NCBI GenBank assembly: GCA_025998875.1
Contig: AP024675.1
Span: 1,461,549 to 1,525,548, forward strand
Source: Bacteroidota bacterium
GTDB lineage: Bacteria; Bacteroidota; Rhodothermia; JANXDC01
Length of the DNA: 64,000 nucleotides
Direction of reading: 5' to 3'
Position numbers and translations under genes: made by a program. This document shows, one piece after another, positions 46,636 to 55,376 of this stretch. Every line of letters starts with the position of its first letter. Position 1 is the stretch's first letter. The notes below the pieces were generated by a model. That model was given only the letters and a program-made list of their open reading frames with translations, was not told where the DNA came from and did no database searches.

Positions 46636-46659
46636 GTCTTCGAGGTGGAGGAAACGAAG

Positions 46660-47715
46660 ATGCCTGTGCGCACAAAGGCCGATTACTTGCGCGAGCCCAT
46701 CGAGCACCTGGATCTGGCCAGCTTCGATGCGGTGCCTCTGGTGGAGGCCATGGAGCATATGGCCTTTCAGGCCCGCAATCTAGCCCGCGCGGCCAAGATC
46801 TACGAGCAGATGCTGCGGGATCGGGAATGTACGGTCATCCTCACCCTGGCCGGATCCCTTTTCAGTGCGGGGCTGAAGCGGATCGTCTACGACATGATCC
46901 GCTACAACATGGTGGATGTGATCGTCTCCACGGGGGCCATCATCGTCGATCAGGACTTCTTTGAGGCGCTGGGCTTTCGGCACTATAAGGGCAGCCCTAT
47001 GGTGGACGATGATGAACTGCGTGAGCTCCATATCGACCGCATCTACGATACGTACATCGATGAGGATGAGCTGCGGATCTGTGATTTCACCATCGCCCGG
47101 ATCGCCGATGCGCTAGAGCCTCGGCCGTATTCTTCCCGGGAGTTCATCTATGAGATGGGACGTTATCTGGAGGCGCAAGGGGGGCCCGCCGCAGAGGACT
47201 CCGTGGTCTATGCCGCCTATCGGCATGGTGTGCCCATCTTCGTGCCCGCCTTCTCGGATTGCTCGGCGGGATTCGGGCTGGTCTATCATCAGACTCAGCG
47301 GCCCGGACGGCATGTGACGATCGACTCGGTGGCCGATTTCCGGGAGCTGACGCAGATTAAAATCGCCGCCCGCGATACGGGTCTGTTCATGATCGGCGGG
47401 GGCGTTCCCAAGAATTTCGCCCAGGATGTGGTCGTGGCGGCCGATATTCTGGGTGCGGAAGCACCCATGCACAAGTACGCCGTTCAGATCACCGTGGCCG
47501 ATGAGCGCGACGGGGGCCTTTCCGGATCCACGCTCCGGGAGGCCAGCTCCTGGGGTAAGGTGGCCAACATCTACGAACAGATGGTCTACGCCGAGGCGAC
47601 GCTGGCTATGCCTCTGGTGGTCAACTACGCCTGGCGCAAAGAGGCCTGGCGGGAGCGGCCCCGGCGGCGGTGGCAGGACTGGCTCGCCGCTCAGGAGATC
47701 TCCTCGGGAGCCTGA
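46660..47715 (+). CDS. Deoxyhypusine synthase-like protein
   Basis: A 351-residue protein of the deoxyhypusine synthase fold. Conserved pieces are LTLAGSLFSAGLKRIVYDMI, DVIVSTGAIIVDQDFFEALG, VPIFVPAFSDCSAGFGLVYH, IGGGVPKNFAQDVVVAADIL and SSWGKVANIYEQ, with Lys300 in the position of the enzyme-intermediate lysine. Bacteria lack eIF5A hypusine as a substrate, and bacterial homologues have been linked to homospermidine or other polyamine/agmatine chemistry, so the reaction here is unproven. The ATG at 46660 follows GGAGGAAACGAAG. The 3' end overlaps the convergent HD gene by 25 bases. Confidence 0.88.
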   Translation: MPVRTKADYLREPIEHLDLASFDAVPLVEAMEHMAFQARNLARAAKIYEQMLRDRECTVILTLAGSLFSAGLKRIVYDMIRYNMVDVIVSTGAIIVDQDFFEALGFRHYKGSPMVDDDELRELHIDRIYDTYIDEDELRICDFTIARIADALEPRPYSSREFIYEMGRYLEAQGGPAAEDSVVYAAYRHGVPIFVPAFSDCSAGFGLVYHQTQRPGRHVTIDSVADFRELTQIKIAARDTGLFMIGGGVPKNFAQDVVVAADILGAEAPMHKYAVQITVADERDGGLSGSTLREASSWGKVANIYEQMVYAEATLAMPLVVNYAWRKEAWRERPRRRWQDWLAAQEISSGA

Positions 47716-48974
47716 AAGGCCCGGCGCAGACCCACTTCCTGGGCCACCTCCCTGGGCAGGCAGACGTAGTGCTTGATCACGGGTTGGGATACGGCCGCGA
47801 TGTTCGGCGTATCCGTGGCGCGGGAGAATTCTACCCGTCGGCCGTCCGGGTACCAGATCCATATCCCTTCATGGCCGAGCTGATAGGCGCTGTTGCGGGA
47901 GTTGTCCAGTTGTATGTAGGCGGAGATCGTTTCCTCATCATCGGGCAGTGCCCGCGAACGCAGCCAGCGCGCTGTGGCCGCGCGCCAGCCTTCGAGCTCC
48001 GCTTCCTGGGGAGGGTCCTCCAGGAAGATCGTTCGGGGTAGCCGCCGTTCCAGCAGGCGCAGGGCCAGATCTCGCAGGACGGGTTCCCGGCTTTGGGTCC
48101 AGCATTTGACCGCGCCGAGCACATCGCTGTCGTCTAATTGGACAAAATGGGCCAGCGTTTCCTCGGTAAGGGTCCGGAAGGGGGCCTCCAGAAAGAAGCG
48201 CAGAGCCGGCGAGAGGCCGTCGAGCACCGAGCCCTCCCCTGAGGAAGCCAGGGCCCGCGCCCGACGGACCAGGGCAAGCAGCAGTTTATCGGCGGCCAGC
48301 ACGGTTTTGTGCAGGTACACCTGCCAGTACATCAGGCGCCGGGCGATGATGTAGTTTTCCAGCGCGTAGACGCCTTTCTGCTCGATGACCAGCTCCTCAT
48401 CCACCACGCGCATCGTTTTAATAATGCGCTCGACCCCGATCACCCCTTCGGCCACCCCCGTGTAGAAGGAATCCCGTCGGAGGTAATCGAGCCGGTCCAT
48501 GTCCAGCTGACTGGAGACGAGCTGGTGCAAAAACCGGCGGGGATAGGTGCCGATGAAGATCTCCACGCTCAGCCAGAGCGCCTCATCTTCCCGGGCGAGC
48601 CGTTCAAAAAGCGCCCGGGTGATGGCCTCGTGGCTCAGGCCGGGTAGGAGAACGGATTCCAGTACGTGGGAAAACGGGCCATGGCCCAAGTCGTGCAGGA
48701 GCGCGGCCAGCAGAGCCGCCTCCCGCTCCTGAGGGCTGATCTCGGTGCCCTTCTCCTCCAGCGTCTGCAGCGCCTGCTGCATGAGCGCCATGGCCCCCAG
48801 GGCATGCTGAAAGCGGCTGTGCTCGGCTCCCGGAAAGACCAGAAATCCAAGCCCGAGCTGTCGGATGCGCCGCAGGCGCTGCACGAAAGGATGGTCCACA
48901 TAGGCCAGCACCCGACCACGGGGAATGGAGATAAACCCTCCTACCGGGTCGGCGAAGAGCTTGAATCGGTTCAT
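47691..48974 (-). CDS. HD-domain phosphohydrolase (SAMHD1/dNTPase-like)
   Basis: A 427-residue HD-superfamily enzyme. Likely metal ligands are His57 (HSRFQHALGAM), His94-Asp95 (LLHDLGHGPFSHVLE) and Asp158 (SSQLDMDRLDYLRRD). This arrangement matches dGTPase/SAMHD1-type triphosphohydrolases, and the substrate could be dNTPs. The C-terminal half is helical with a short beta region (IWIWYPDGRRVEFSR). A promoter with a clear TTTG/-7 pair lies just upstream (48996-49027). Confidence 0.9.
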   Translation of the reverse strand: MNRFKLFADPVGGFISIPRGRVLAYVDHPFVQRLRRIRQLGLGFLVFPGAEHSRFQHALGAMALMQQALQTLEEKGTEISPQEREAALLAALLHDLGHGPFSHVLESVLLPGLSHEAITRALFERLAREDEALWLSVEIFIGTYPRRFLHQLVSSQLDMDRLDYLRRDSFYTGVAEGVIGVERIIKTMRVVDEELVIEQKGVYALENYIIARRLMYWQVYLHKTVLAADKLLLALVRRARALASSGEGSVLDGLSPALRFFLEAPFRTLTEETLAHFVQLDDSDVLGAVKCWTQSREPVLRDLALRLLERRLPRTIFLEDPPQEAELEGWRAATARWLRSRALPDDEETISAYIQLDNSRNSAYQLGHEGIWIWYPDGRRVEFSRATDTPNIAAVSQPVIKHYVCLPREVAQEVGLRRAFQAPEEIS

Positions 48975-48995: not shown

Positions 48996-49027
48996 GAAAC
49001 TTATATCAACTCAGGGGAAACAGCAAA
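48996..49027 (-). promoter_or_regulatory. Bacteroidetes-type -33/-7 promoter of the HD gene
   Basis: On the minus strand TTTG and TAAGTTTC are separated by 20 bases, close to the TTTG-N19-21-TAnnTTTG consensus with one mismatch. The -7 element is 21 bases from the ATG at 48974. It lies back to back with the sigma70-like susC promoter. Confidence 0.55.
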
Positions 49028-49050: not shown

Positions 49051-49080
49051 TTGACAAACGACTGTTGGTTCCTGTATAAT
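49051..49080 (+). promoter_or_regulatory. Consensus sigma70-like promoter of the susC/susD operon
   Basis: TTGACA (49051-49056) and TATAAT (49075-49080) are both perfect enterobacterial hexamers with an 18-base spacer. Transcription would start near 49087, giving a leader of about 90 bases that contains the hairpin at 49102-49134. Such a match is unlikely by chance and unusual for this phylum. Confidence 0.75.
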
Positions 49081-49101
49081 CTCGAGGCCCTGTAAAGGGG
49101 A

Positions 49102-49134
49102 GGACATCCAGCGTGAGGAGGTGTCTGGATGTCC
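49102..49134 (+). promoter_or_regulatory. Strong hairpin in the susC leader
   Basis: A perfect 10-bp inverted repeat (GGACATCCAG at 49102-49111 and CTGGATGTCC at 49125-49134) encloses a 13-base loop containing GAGGAGG. It sits in the predicted 5' leader, 41 bases before the susC ATG and 22 bases after the -10 element. There is no T-run, so it is not a simple terminator. It may be an operator, an mRNA stabiliser or a control hairpin. Confidence 0.7.
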
Positions 49135-49175
49135 AGGAGCGGAGGTCTCGGGTACAAAAACAGGAGGAGAGGCGC

Positions 49176-52100
49176 ATGCGACTTCGTGCTACGCTCATGT
49201 GGGCGCTATTAGCCCTGTGGCCGGTGGGGCTTCTAGCGCAGAACCTGGTCATTCGAGGCACTGTTCGGGATGTAAACAACGAGCCGCTTCCGGGCGCGAA
49301 CGTCTTCATTGAGGCGCTCACGCTGGGGACCACGGCCGATGTGAACGGGAGCTACCGGCTGGAGGTGCCTGCGCGCTATCTGGACGGGCGCACGGTATCG
49401 CTTGTGGTGAGCTTTGTGGGGTATGTGCGGCAGAGCCGGCCCATTCAGCTGCGGCCCGGGGAGCAGACGATCAACTTTGTGCTGCGGGAGGATCCGCTGC
49501 GGCTCGATGAGGTGGTGGTCACGGGCGTGGTGGAGGCCACCCCGCAGCGGAAGCTGGCCTTTACGGTCAACCGGCTCTCCGGTGAGCAGCTTGAGCTGGT
49601 GCCCGCCACAAACGCTGTTTCGGCGCTGGCCGGCAAGGTGGCCGGGGCGCAGGTCATTCAGGGTTCAGGGCTTCCGGGCTCGGGGGCCTCTATTCTGCTT
49701 CGGGGTCCGACGAGCATCTATGAGTCCAACTCGCCCCTGATCGTCGTTGACGGCGTCATTCTGGGGGCCAGTCAGGTAGATATCGATCCGCAGGACATCG
49801 AGTCCATCGAGGTGGTCAAGGGCGCGGCGGCTGCTTCGCTGTATGGGTCGCGGGCGCAGGCCGGGGTAATTCAGATCCGCACCCGTCGGGGGCGGGAAAT
49901 TCCGGTGGGGCAGACGCGCGTGCGCTTCACCAGCGAGCTGGGCACAAACCAGATGCCCAAGTATCCGACCAAGTCCATGAGCCATAACTGGTTGATGGAC
50001 TCCCAGGGCCGTTTTCTAAACGCGCAGGGGCAGGTGGTTACCTGGGAGGATATCCTGGTGCGTGGCGTGACCCCCGCGTTGCGGGATTACGCCACGGGAG
50101 GTGCTACGGGCAACCCGAACCGGGTCTTTCAGGATCAGCCCTATCCGCCGGGTACACAGCTGTATGATCACTTCCGGCAGTTCTACAACCCCGGACAGTT
50201 TGTCACCAATCAGCTCATCGTGACGCACAACTCCGCCTCCACGAACGTCTATGCGTCCTTTGCCAACACGTGGGAGTCCGGGGTGCTCTGGAAGATGAAG
50301 GGCTACAACCGGCAGAACGTGCGGCTGAACGTCGATCACCGGGTGGCGTCCGGGCTTGAGTTTGCCTCCAGTCTTTACTACGCTTATTCGGATCGGGACA
50401 ACCCGTTCTCGGCGGCGCCGAACCCGTTCTATCAGATCTGGTTCATCCGCCCCTATGTGGACCTTCTGCGGCGCGATGAGAATGGCAAGCTCATCGCCGT
50501 TCCCGATCGGACGTTGCTCCAGGATAACCCTCTCTACATCATTGAAAACGCCCAGTTCAGAGAAAACCGACAGCGTTTCCTGGGCAACGCCCGGCTGAAG
50601 TACGCGCCTGTGACGTGGTTCAACCTGGAGGCCAATATCTCCTACGATCGCTCCGATCGGAGCTCCAACGGCTTCTATCCGCGGGGATATGAGTCCATTA
50701 CTTCCTCCGGACTCAACATCGGCCGGATCACGGAGTCAAGCGCCTACACGACGGCGCTGAACGGGGATCTGACGGCCTCGTTTTTCCGGGACTTTGGGCC
50801 GCTTGCCACGCGCACCAAGCTGCGCTACAGCTTCGAGGTGCAGGAGGATAAGTCCGTTTCCGCGCGCGGAGATCGGCTCATCGTCGAGGGAGTAAAGTCC
50901 CTGGCGGCGGCCGGAGGGGATAAATTTGTCGGCTCCTCGCGCACGCTCGTTCGCTCCGAGGGCTATTACCTGATCACGGGGCTGGAGTACCGGGAGCGCT
51001 ACCTGGCCGATTTCCTCATCCGGCGCGACGGGAGCTCGCTCTTTGGCCCCAATGAGCGCTGGCATACGTACTTCCGCGTATCCGGCGCCTGGCGCATAGC
51101 CGATGAGCCCTGGTGGCCGCTGAAGAACGTGGTCACGGACTTCAAGCCCCGCTACTCCTACGGCACGGCCGGCGGCCGGCCCCGCTTCTCGGCCCAGTAT
51201 GAGACCTACTCCATCTCGGCCGGAACGGTCTCTAAAGGCACGCTGGGCAATCCGAACCTGAAGCCCGAGCTGCAGATCGAGCAGGAGATCGGGCTGGATG
51301 TGGCCTTCTTTAACCGGATTTCGGTGGAGGTGGTGCGGGCGTTGTCGACGGTGAAGGATCAGCTGGTGGCCGTGCCGCTTCCGGGCTTTTATGGGTTTGG
51401 TTCGCAGTGGCAGAATGCGGGCACGCTGAAGTCGAACACCTGGGAGCTGAGCCTGAACGCGCAGCTGGTGCGCACGCGGGACCTGTCCTGGACGGCCGGG
51501 GTGGTCTGGGATCGGACGCGGCAGAAGATCACCGAGTTCAACCGTCCCCCCTTCCGGGATGGGTACTTCTACTATCGGGAGGGCGAGGTGCTGGGAGCTT
51601 TCTACGGCAACCGGTTCCTCAAATCCCCCGATGAGCTGCCCACCTATTTGCAGAAGTATCGGGATCAGTTTCAGGTCAATGACGATGGGTATCTGGTCTG
51701 GGTTGGTGCGGGCAACTCCTGGCGGGATGGTTTTGCCAAGCAGCTCTGGGGCACGAGCGCGACGCTTGTGGGCGACAACGGCCGCTCCTACACGTTCAAC
51801 TGGGGCATTCCGATCCGGGAGTTTGATGAGCTGGGCCAGCCCACGTACGTGAAGCTCGGTGATGTGGTGCCGGACTTCAACTTTGGCTTCAACACGCAGC
51901 TGCGCTACAAGGGGCTGACCATCTACATGCTCTGGCAGGGTCAGTACGGAGGCAAGATCTACAACAACACCCGCCAGTGGGCCTATCGCGACTACACGCA
52001 CGCCGATTTTGATCAGCGCGGCAAGCCCGATGAGCGCAAAAAGCCCGTGGGCTACTACGCGGTCCTCTACAACGTAAACTCTCCGAGCAGCCACTTTGTG

Positions 52101-52346
52101 GAGGACGGCACCTATTTGAAGCTGCGGGAGCTGTCGGTGGGGTATGTGTTTGATCGGGCTTTGCTGAGCCGGTTCTTTGGCAATCGGATCAACCGGCTCT
52201 ATGTCTCCATCGTGGGCCGCAACCTGCTCACCTTCACCCGGTATTCGGGCCTTGATCCCGAGGTGGGCACCACGCTGTACCGTGTCGATGAGTTCGACTA
52301 TCCGCGGTACCGCAACATCACGGCTCGTATCGAGATCGAGTTTTAG
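49176..52346 (+). CDS. SusC/RagA family TonB-linked outer-membrane protein
   Basis: A 1056-residue outer-membrane nutrient importer. It comprises a signal peptide (about 1-21, ending GLLAQ), a carboxypeptidase-like regulatory domain (IRGTVRDVNNEPLPGANVFI) and a plug domain with LDEVVVTGVVEATPQR and the family motif DIESIEVVKGAAAASLYGSR. A C-terminal barrel ends in RNITARIEIEF. It forms a transport unit with the SusD-like lipoprotein 17 bases downstream. AGGAGG at 49162-49167 precedes the ATG. No glycosidase or peptidase is attached, so the substrate is unknown. The leader carries a strong hairpin. Confidence 0.97.
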   Translation: MRLRATLMWALLALWPVGLLAQNLVIRGTVRDVNNEPLPGANVFIEALTLGTTADVNGSYRLEVPARYLDGRTVSLVVSFVGYVRQSRPIQLRPGEQTINFVLREDPLRLDEVVVTGVVEATPQRKLAFTVNRLSGEQLELVPATNAVSALAGKVAGAQVIQGSGLPGSGASILLRGPTSIYESNSPLIVVDGVILGASQVDIDPQDIESIEVVKGAAAASLYGSRAQAGVIQIRTRRGREIPVGQTRVRFTSELGTNQMPKYPTKSMSHNWLMDSQGRFLNAQGQVVTWEDILVRGVTPALRDYATGGATGNPNRVFQDQPYPPGTQLYDHFRQFYNPGQFVTNQLIVTHNSASTNVYASFANTWESGVLWKMKGYNRQNVRLNVDHRVASGLEFASSLYYAYSDRDNPFSAAPNPFYQIWFIRPYVDLLRRDENGKLIAVPDRTLLQDNPLYIIENAQFRENRQRFLGNARLKYAPVTWFNLEANISYDRSDRSSNGFYPRGYESITSSGLNIGRITESSAYTTALNGDLTASFFRDFGPLATRTKLRYSFEVQEDKSVSARGDRLIVEGVKSLAAAGGDKFVGSSRTLVRSEGYYLITGLEYRERYLADFLIRRDGSSLFGPNERWHTYFRVSGAWRIADEPWWPLKNVVTDFKPRYSYGTAGGRPRFSAQYETYSISAGTVSKGTLGNPNLKPELQIEQEIGLDVAFFNRISVEVVRALSTVKDQLVAVPLPGFYGFGSQWQNAGTLKSNTWELSLNAQLVRTRDLSWTAGVVWDRTRQKITEFNRPPFRDGYFYYREGEVLGAFYGNRFLKSPDELPTYLQKYRDQFQVNDDGYLVWVGAGNSWRDGFAKQLWGTSATLVGDNGRSYTFNWGIPIREFDELGQPTYVKLGDVVPDFNFGFNTQLRYKGLTIYMLWQGQYGGKIYNNTRQWAYRDYTHADFDQRGKPDERKKPVGYYAVLYNVNSPSSHFVEDGTYLKLRELSVGYVFDRALLSRFFGNRINRLYVSIVGRNLLTFTRYSGLDPEVGTTLYRVDEFDYPRYRNITARIEIEF

Positions 52347-52363
52347 GCGGAGGAGGGAACACG

Positions 52364-53947
52364 ATGCGTTACGCCTGGCTTTTGCCGATTGCCGCTTTCG
52401 CGGTGGGCTGTATGAACCTGGAGGTGCCTAACGAGAACCAGCCCGACCGCACGCGGGTTCTGGCTACCCCACAGGACATCGAGGCGGTCATCGGGGGGTC
52501 GTTTCTGGACTGGTGGTCGGCCACCCAGAAGTATACTCCCTCCATGACCCTGAGCACCATGGCCGATGAGATGACCTCTTCGTGGGGGAATTTTGGCATG
52601 CAGGATCTCTCCAGTGAACCCCGCGCTGCCTATCGTAATAGCACCACCTATACGTACCGGGCCTTTGTGAACGATCCCTGGTATGGTTGTTATCGGGCCA
52701 TTTCCTCGGCCAACGATGGGCTGGGGGCCATTGCCCGCGGGGTGAAGCTGGATCAGGAGGCTCGGGCCAAGGCCTTTGCCAAGTTTGTGCAGGGGATTGC
52801 CTACGGTTGGCTGGCCTGCATGTTTGACAAGGCCTTTTTGGTCGACGAGACGGTCAATTTGGAGGATGTGGCGCTGGGCAAGGTGAAGCTCGAATTTCAG
52901 CCCTACAAGGAGGTCTGGGCCTTTGCGCGGACGAAGCTGCTGGAGGCGGCCCAGATTGCCGAGCAGAACACGTTTACGATTCCGAACACGTGGATCAACG
53001 GGCTGGAGCTGACGAACCGGGATCTGGCCGCGCTCTGCTACAGTTTTCTGGCCCGCTATGAGGCCGCCGTGGCCCGTTCCCCCCAGGAACGCGCCCAGGT
53101 GAACTGGAATCAGATCCTTCAGTGGATCTCCAAGGGCGTCAGCAAAGACTACTTCGCGCAGGGCGACGGAAACCTCTGGTGGGCCGGGTATCTGTATCTG
53201 GGCCAGGATGCCACCTGGACGCGCGCCGATTACAAGACAATCGGTATCGCGGATCAGTCCAATGGCTATATCAACTGGCTCAATACGCCCCTGCTCAACC
53301 GCACCGAGTTCGTAATGCAGCCGGATGATCAGCGTATCGGAACCACGCTCAACGCGACAGGAGGGAAGATCTATTTCACCCTTACGGGATCTTCCAGCTT
53401 CCGTGCCGAGCGGGGCACCTATCACTTCTCCCGCTACTACCATACCCGGTTCCGGTACTTCCGCACGGGCGGCGCCACGGGGCCGATGCCGCTCATGACC
53501 GTGCGTGAGATGCGCCTGTTGCGGGCTGAGGCCCTGTTGCGCACGAACGGCGACCTCAATGAGGTGGCCAGCATCATCAACGAGACGCGGGTGACCAACG
53601 GTGGATTGCCGCCGGCTTCGGCCAGCGACGGGCGGGGTACGCCCTCCGACGGCAACGCGCACAACCCGGCCCGCGTGCGGGATCAGACCCTGTGGGCCAA
53701 GCTCAAGCGCGAATGGCTCTTTGAGAACTTCAACATCACCTCGGGTCTGGCCTACTTCACCCGGCGCGGCTGGGGTGAGCTGGTCTCCGGCACGCCGCTG
53801 CACCTGCCTGTCCCGGCCAATGAGCTGGAGACGCTCCGGCTGGAGGTTTACACGCACGGGGGCAACATCGGCGATGTGGCTCCGCGCGTGCAGGCCAACG
53901 TGCCCTTTACCTCCAAGCCGATCACCGGGCAGGTGGCTTTTGAATGA
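52364..53947 (+). CDS. SusD/RagB family nutrient-binding outer-membrane lipoprotein
   Basis: A 527-residue lipoprotein with lipobox FAVGC (cysteine near residue 16). It has the typical SusD start, NLEVPNENQPDRTRVLATPQ, and a TPR-like helical core, for example SFLARYEAAVARSPQERAQV. The C-terminal region carries MPLMTVREMRLLRAEALLRT and LWAKLKREWLFENFN, family hallmarks. It caps the SusC channel and binds an unknown ligand. AGGAGGGAACACG precedes the ATG. A strong terminator lies 30 bases after the stop, closing a two-gene operon. Confidence 0.96.
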   Translation: MRYAWLLPIAAFAVGCMNLEVPNENQPDRTRVLATPQDIEAVIGGSFLDWWSATQKYTPSMTLSTMADEMTSSWGNFGMQDLSSEPRAAYRNSTTYTYRAFVNDPWYGCYRAISSANDGLGAIARGVKLDQEARAKAFAKFVQGIAYGWLACMFDKAFLVDETVNLEDVALGKVKLEFQPYKEVWAFARTKLLEAAQIAEQNTFTIPNTWINGLELTNRDLAALCYSFLARYEAAVARSPQERAQVNWNQILQWISKGVSKDYFAQGDGNLWWAGYLYLGQDATWTRADYKTIGIADQSNGYINWLNTPLLNRTEFVMQPDDQRIGTTLNATGGKIYFTLTGSSSFRAERGTYHFSRYYHTRFRYFRTGGATGPMPLMTVREMRLLRAEALLRTNGDLNEVASIINETRVTNGGLPPASASDGRGTPSDGNAHNPARVRDQTLWAKLKREWLFENFNITSGLAYFTRRGWGELVSGTPLHLPVPANELETLRLEVYTHGGNIGDVAPRVQANVPFTSKPITGQVAFE

Positions 53948-53976: not shown

Positions 53977-54014
53977 ACAGGGGCGGCTTGCCGTTACATG
54001 CCGCCCCTGTTTTG
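53977..54014 (+). terminator. Intrinsic terminator of the susCD operon
   Basis: A perfect 11-bp stem (ACAGGGGCGGC at 53977-53987 with GCCGCCCCTGT at 54000-54010) with a 12-base loop is followed by TTTTGCCTTTG. It is among the strongest terminator candidates in the window. Its T-tract overlaps the -33 element of the next promoter. Confidence 0.85.
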
Positions 54015-54563: not shown

Positions 54564-55376
54564 TTAGGGGGCAGATCGGTAGCGCAAGCGCCGCATCTGC
54601 CCCCCTTCATTGGTGAGCACTAGTACGTCTGCGTCAAAACAGATCCCTTCGCTTTGTCCGAACGCGATCGGAATACGTCGGCTGCGGCGACGCAGAAACG
54701 GCATATCCGGCCGCTCGGCCTCCAGAATCCATATCGCTGTATAAGTGAGCACGGCCAGCCTGCGTCCATCCGGGGAAAGATCGGCCGCTGTTACCAGCCC
54801 CCCGATGTCCAGGGAATCTAGACGCTCCCAGCGAATGACGGGTTCATCCAGGGGCGTGCTCCTGTACAGCACGGTGCGGCCATCCCCCCAGCGTTTGGTG
54901 AGCACATAGAGGTGGTTCTTCCATACCCAGAGGGCCTCGGCATCAAAGTTCGATGGAACGGCCGGAAAGGCACGCTGGTCGGGGTAAGCCAGGGGGATGA
55001 AACGAACCGCCGTGGCCACCGTATCCTGCCACGGATTTGGTTCGGGCACCACGTAGATGCCCAGATCCCGCCTCGTGCTGCGGTTGTTGCCGATGTCGGC
55101 GATATACAGGTTTCCCTGCTCGTCCAGGGCGATATCCTCCCAGTCCACATGGTGCGCGTTGCGCACGGGCAGGATGCCGATGAGTCGGCCCGTGGAGTCT
55201 ATGGCAAACAGGCGCGGGCTGTCTCCGGAGTCGTTGTGCGTCCAGTAGAGGTTGGCATACTGGCGGCTGCGTACGATTCCGGAGCTCTCCCGGATTTCCG
55301 GGGACTGGAATCGATACTCCGTCCAGTAGACGGAATCCGCCGCTGCCCAGAGTGCCACAAGCAGGCAGGCCGTCAC
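54564..55376 (-). CDS. YjiK/SdiA-regulated-like beta-propeller protein
   Basis: A 270-residue exported protein with a short signal (about 1-13). Blade-like repeats include ESSGIVRSRQYANLYWTHND, HVDWEDIALDEQGNLYIADI and PSNFDAEALWVWKNHLYVLT, matching the beta-propeller family of SdiA-regulated and esterase-like phytase proteins. An acidic motif (GQSEGICFDADVLVLTNEGG) closes the propeller. The function is unknown, perhaps phosphate or ligand binding. The start appears to be GTG with GGAGAG upstream. Confidence 0.72.
   Translation of the reverse strand: MTACLLVALWAAADSVYWTEYRFQSPEIRESSGIVRSRQYANLYWTHNDSGDSPRLFAIDSTGRLIGILPVRNAHHVDWEDIALDEQGNLYIADIGNNRSTRRDLGIYVVPEPNPWQDTVATAVRFIPLAYPDQRAFPAVPSNFDAEALWVWKNHLYVLTKRWGDGRTVLYRSTPLDEPVIRWERLDSLDIGGLVTAADLSPDGRRLAVLTYTAIWILEAERPDMPFLRRRSRRIPIAFGQSEGICFDADVLVLTNEGGQMRRLRYRSAP

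Follow-up and report, generated by a model that had tools for sequence, protein, structure and literature searches.

A putative TTGACA/TATAAT promoter and a species-specific leader stem-loop upstream of a susCD operon in a distant relative of Bacteroides

Introduction

The sigma-70 promoter of E. coli is TTGACA-N17-TATAAT, and the ompA leader of the same organism contains a 5'-terminal stem-loop that stabilises the mRNA. The primary promoter consensus of Bacteroidota consists of TTTG at -33 and TAnnTTTG at -7 and is read by sigma-ABfr, and a short SigA without region 1.1 has been described for this phylum (PMC6847099, PMC7366714). Antisense RNAs of the DonS type, which in Bacteroides are encoded opposite susC, are cited in PMC7366714. 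In the literature searched, promoters had been mapped in neither Rhodothermus nor Salinibacter.

Here we analysed the upstream region of a susC gene in a distant relative of Bacteroides, whose genome is a single contig of 2.35 Mb. The whole stretch of DNA analysed (64 kb) is referred to as the window, and its features are given in Table 1. The sister species used for comparison is the only other member of the family in the genome collection, and its HD-gene/susC region sits at a contig end.

Table 1. Features of the susC locus and related sites (window positions unless a locus is named)
Feature	Position	Strand	Remarks
-35 hexamer TTGACA of the susC promoter	49051..49056	+	Exact match; C at the base before it, as at 27 of the 39 sites read out in the genome
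-10 hexamer TATAAT of the susC promoter	49075..49080	+	18-nt spacer; TATTAT with a 17-nt spacer in the sister species
Predicted 5' leader	49087..49175	+	Start placed about 7 nt after the -10 hexamer, from promoter geometry
Stem-loop	49102..49134	+	Perfect 10-bp stem, 13-nt loop; species-specific leader element
Shine-Dalgarno-like AGGAGG	49162..49167	+	8 nt ahead of ATG, not part of the hairpin and kept in the sister species
susC (SusC/RagA TonB-linked outer membrane protein, 1056 aa)	49176..52346	+	TIGR04056, E=1.1e-174; Pfam Plug and CarbopepD_reg_2
susD-like gene, downstream of susC	52364..53947	+	PF14322, E=2.6e-5, just below cut-off
HD-domain gene, divergent from susC	47691..48974	-	PF01966 and PF19276
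Candidate divergent promoter of the HD-domain gene, TTGCTG-N17-TAAGTTTC	48996..49026	-	Lineage TAnnTTT type; by inspection only
Mosaic region	49236-53113 and L089 from 5619		Two susCD copies
exbB-family TTGACA-N17/18-TATAAT sites	L003 1501-1530; L131, L145, L198-L205		Five families of the class

Results

The product of susC scored 583 bits against TIGR04056 (cut-off of 368) and thus belongs to the SusC/RagA family. The HD-domain gene also neighbours susC in the sister species, where it is likewise divergent (L085/L090). A gene of the deoxyhypusine synthase family, which is uncommon in bacteria, was observed at 46645-47715 (PF01916, E=4e-102).

The putative promoter TTGACA-N18-TATAAT (49051-49080) lies 95 nt ahead of the susC ATG at 49176. 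Both hexamers are exact and are separated by 18 bases, as the initial annotation had described, which agrees with E. coli-type sigma-70 promoters (hexamers 16 to 18 nt apart), and the site was the sole 12/12 match in a two-hexamer scan of 19 kb. Exact TTGACA/TATAAT occurred at two sites in the 2.35-Mb genome, the susC site included, and the reversed control pattern at none. The -10 region at susC (TATAATCT) lacks TAnnTTTG at -7, and near -33, where the TTTG element of the Bacteroidota promoter was sought, CTTG was found as part of a full CTTGACA. In the sister species, the aligned counterpart of the -35 hexamer was TTGACAAACGA, and the same position before susC was occupied by CTTGACAAACGA...TATTAT with a 17-nt spacer. 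The two species also share GGAGGAGA ahead of the ATG, and the stretch between the promoter and GGAGGAGA gave no meaningful alignment between them. Because the sister species has TTGACA-N17-TATTAT in the same place, the susC promoter is very probably real. Two-hexamer scans yield false matches, and the site could be a chance resemblance with transcription starting elsewhere; however, the full 12/12 match, the count of just two such sites in the genome versus zero for the control pattern, and the conserved position make such a coincidence highly improbable. The conserved position and the TIGR04056 match also support the earlier proposal that this is the promoter of a nutrient-import operon, and the loss from close relatives that had been named as counter-evidence was not seen for the promoter, which is kept in the sister species.

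The pattern TTGACA-N16-19-TAnnnT was found 42 times in the genome versus 2 times for the reversed control, and 43 versus 5 times in the sister species. The motif read out from 39 sites of the genome, a few of which may fall within coding sequence, was CTTGACA, a spacer of 17 or 18 nt and TAnnTT, with T and G as the next bases in about half of the sites each. The base at -8 was T in 33 of the 39 sites and A in 3. Many of them head tRNA genes, and others precede 16S rRNA and protein genes. Three tandem TTGACA-N17/18-TAnCTT promoters were observed before the 16S rRNA gene (G000:C1:1121726-1121927). Judging from these sites, the housekeeping promoter of this genome is a hybrid of the full TTGACA and the Bacteroidota-type TAnnTT(TG). 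The stricter pattern TTGACA-N16-19-TAnnTTTG gave 26 matches versus 0 in the control in the genus, and just 169 versus 102 in 52 members of the class outside it, so that this genus gives the clearest evidence of the strong TTGACA...TAnnTTTG form. Among 164 predicted upstream regions, a simple count of hexamer pairs found too few strong sites to separate the promoter types; this count was uninformative because the gene calls were rough, and it was the pattern search with the reversed control that gave the result. Since TTGACA is the normal -35 element of this genome, it is not foreign here, and TATAAT is the exceptional half of the susC promoter. The view that this promoter is not of the usual Bacteroidota type therefore holds for TATAAT, which departs from the local TAnnTT(TG), but not for TTGACA. 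This corrects the idea of TTGACA as a foreign element in this branch, where it is the normal -35 element and is joined to a Bacteroidota -10 element.

The SigA of this bacterium is short, lacks region 1.1 and carries FISYAVWWIRQSI in region 2.4 and TRERVRQIKEKAIRRLRH in region 4.2. Region 2.4 showed FISYAVWWIRQSI versus FSTYATWWIRQAI in the aligned SigA chains. A short chain, the missing region 1.1 and the changed region 2.4 set it apart from the standard kind of primary sigma factor that serves E. coli-type promoters.

The other exact TTGACA/TATAAT site of the genome precedes a MotA/TolQ/ExbB-family gene, which matched both the exbB and the tolQ equivalog models below their cut-offs. The exact pattern was scanned class-wide in 146 genomes, and among the matches followed up, TTGACA-N17-TATAAT stood before the same gene in four further families, i.e., in five together with its own. 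Since it is shared by five families, a conserved E. coli-like promoter before the exbB-family gene is well supported. The susC orthologs of one further family showed TTGACA-N17/18-TAAAAT, and over two families the -10 hexamer of the susC orthologs was TATAAT, TATTAT or TAAAAT. TTGACATTAT...TATAAT was also observed ahead of similar genes in one family (L120, L136, L142 and L146), and two of these genes (L120 and L142) matched the model of PorU (type IX sortase) in its N-terminal part, short of the full-length cut-off.

The conserved sites before exbB-family genes, the sites before PorU-like genes in one family and the -10 hexamers of the susC orthologs would fit a separate class of TATAAT promoters that differ from TAnnTTTG promoters in how they are read or tuned and that mark TonB-linked and envelope genes. 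However, one of the just three sites of this genome with A at -8 belongs to a tRNA-Gly gene, the susC paralog has TACTTT, and the exact pattern was no commoner than the control in AT-rich members of the class. The link to TonB is also post hoc, with P of about 0.02; together with the rarity of A at -8, this left a TonB regulon behind the TATAAT sites unsupported, and we regard a separate promoter class as unlikely. Several exact matches in the AT-rich members lay within long reading frames and look like chance, and non-coding RNA was rejected as the basis of the class-wide sites, with one tRNA only, on the opposite strand.

The leader carries the perfect 10-bp inverted repeat that had been reported for it, with arms GGACATCCAG (49102-49111) and CTGGATGTCC (49125-49134) and a 13-nt loop (CGTGAGGAGGTGT) that includes GAGGAGG at 49115-49121. 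Perfect inverted repeats of at least 10 bp with loops of 3 to 20 nt numbered 22 in 323 kb of DNA exclusive of masked N stretches, about one per 15 kb, and thus are not rare as such; the window holds 5 of them versus about 1.5 expected from a Markov model. Locally, such a repeat is improbable, being contained in 13 of 20,000 shuffles of the 95-nt susC leader. Two more perfect inverted repeats were observed at 53977-54010 (11 bp, directly after the susD-like gene and followed by TTTGCCTTTG) and at 54567-54604 (10 bp, after the next ORF). The 33-nt hairpin alone folds at -16.6 kcal/mol. The leader has a z-score of -1.87 over 113 nt, and its fold energy and z-score were the lowest among 41 leaders in a comparison of one with 40 of mixed type, tRNA leaders included. 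The predicted fold leaves the Shine-Dalgarno (SD) sequence of susC unpaired. The stem is directly followed by AGGAGCGGAGG with no T-run and is therefore not an intrinsic terminator, and no Rfam family, riboswitch or other RNA element, reached the gathering score in the window.

The hairpin is absent from the susC ortholog of the sister species, from the susC paralog of the same genome and from all of 14 more distant susC homologs, 13 of which had no inverted repeat of at least 7 bp in the 200 nt upstream, some gene starts in this set being uncertain. Unrelated repeats were observed at the homolog L015, among them a 10-bp perfect inverted repeat of its own in the leader, at -77 to -42 of the susC start. 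No second copy of the hairpin within 3 mismatches was found in the own or the sister genome, and the susC leader of the sister species folds no better than its own shuffles (z of -0.64). A conserved regulatory leader structure is thus not seen, the hairpin being missing from relatives with the same operon. The initial annotation had proposed that the hairpin controls translation, transcript stability or read-through, and had named its presence in other susC leaders of the genome and in close relatives with the same operon as the comparisons to make. Both came out against the proposal, which is also unsupported in that the hairpin does not resemble a terminator and the SD stays uncovered.

One form of translational control would use the loop GAGGAGG as a decoy or standby ribosome site, or as the ribosome site of a leader ORF coupled to susC. 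Indeed, GAGGAGG lies 7 nt ahead of an ATG in the 3' arm (49129), and the frame from this ATG runs for 27 codons without a stop and overlaps the start of susC. Such an ORF is not evident in the leader of the sister species, however, and the position of the true SD outside the hairpin, the lack of an Rfam family and the lack of a terminator argue against this control or an attenuator, which we judge improbable. A DNA operator is also quite unlikely. In that case, the two 10-bp half-sites, with centres separated by 23 bp (roughly two turns of the helix), would be bound by a dimeric regulator, which would block transcription from its place just downstream of the start; the position fits a roadblock repressor, and a perfect dyad in a divergent intergenic region is not expected by chance in such a short stretch. 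However, the syntenic ortholog lacks the dyad, no gene for a regulator was identified beside the dyad, and no second site within 3 mismatches was found in the own or the sister genome, so that an operator with several sites was rejected as well. A simple scan for sigma-70-type promoters, as distinct from TAnnTTTG promoters, found none in antisense orientation near the susC leader.

A second susCD copy lies at 1985618, 475 kb from the first. In this pair, stretches with 100% DNA identity, the longest of 347 nt in susC and 438 nt in susD, alternate with blocks of about 50-80% identity, whereas evenly spread differences would give a longest susC run of about 44 nt, and at most 95 nt in 2,000 trials. 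The sister species has both susCD loci, and its two copies match each other, with both contigs ending at the same point; the copies differ between the two species. The alternation of identical runs and diverged blocks, together with the match within the sister species, indicates that the two copies form a gene-conversion mosaic. The two copies of our genome have different promoters and different signal peptides. These data point to gene conversion that keeps a common susCD frame while other blocks diverge.

Discussion

We consider it reasonably likely that a strong SigA promoter drives the susCD nutrient-import operon and that a species-specific 5' stem-loop modestly protects the mRNA end. The promoter, whose identity is well supported, combines the ordinary -35 TTGACA of the genus with a minority, E. 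coli-like -10 TATAAT, having A for the usual T at -8, in common with the exbB-family gene. SigA, the primary sigma factor, would read this promoter; the rarity of TATAAT in this genome counts against SigA, since another factor could read it. From the predicted start, the stem-loop would occupy about +16 to +48 of the transcript. Because it leaves the SD open, its likeliest effect would be a modest protection of the mRNA 5' end at most, and it would not act as a regulated switch. The hairpin is real, but it is seen in this species only and is probably a minor mRNA feature of little importance in itself.

The hybrid promoter rule should be useful for promoter prediction and tool building. A broader and rather doubtful idea is that the class has two SigA promoter grammars, TTGACA with TAnnTTTG for housekeeping and a conserved set of TTGACA with TATAAT, retained in several families, for exbB and some other TonB or envelope genes. 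If true, expression of these genes would be controlled separately even though the sigma factor is of the Bacteroidota type. The findings raise the question by what means such a SigA recognises the TATAAT promoter that is fixed ahead of exbB-family genes in several families.

The susC leader resembles the ompA leader stabiliser in having a stable stem near the 5' end and an unpaired SD, but its stem-loop is not conserved between species and is known here from sequence and predicted folding. Similarly, the susC and exbB promoters share both exact hexamers with the E. coli sigma-70 promoter, whereas the 18-nt spacer at susC, the TAnnTT of the housekeeping sites and region 2.4 of SigA are different. 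Like DonS, the hairpin is a non-coding feature placed at susC, but it is not an antisense gene. Compared with the Bacteroidota primary promoter (PMC6847099, PMC7366714), the typical -10 of this genome is similar (TAnnTT, with TG next in about half of the sites), as is the SigA without region 1.1; the full TTGACA -35 element and the TATAAT without TTTG at the susC and exbB promoters set this genome apart.
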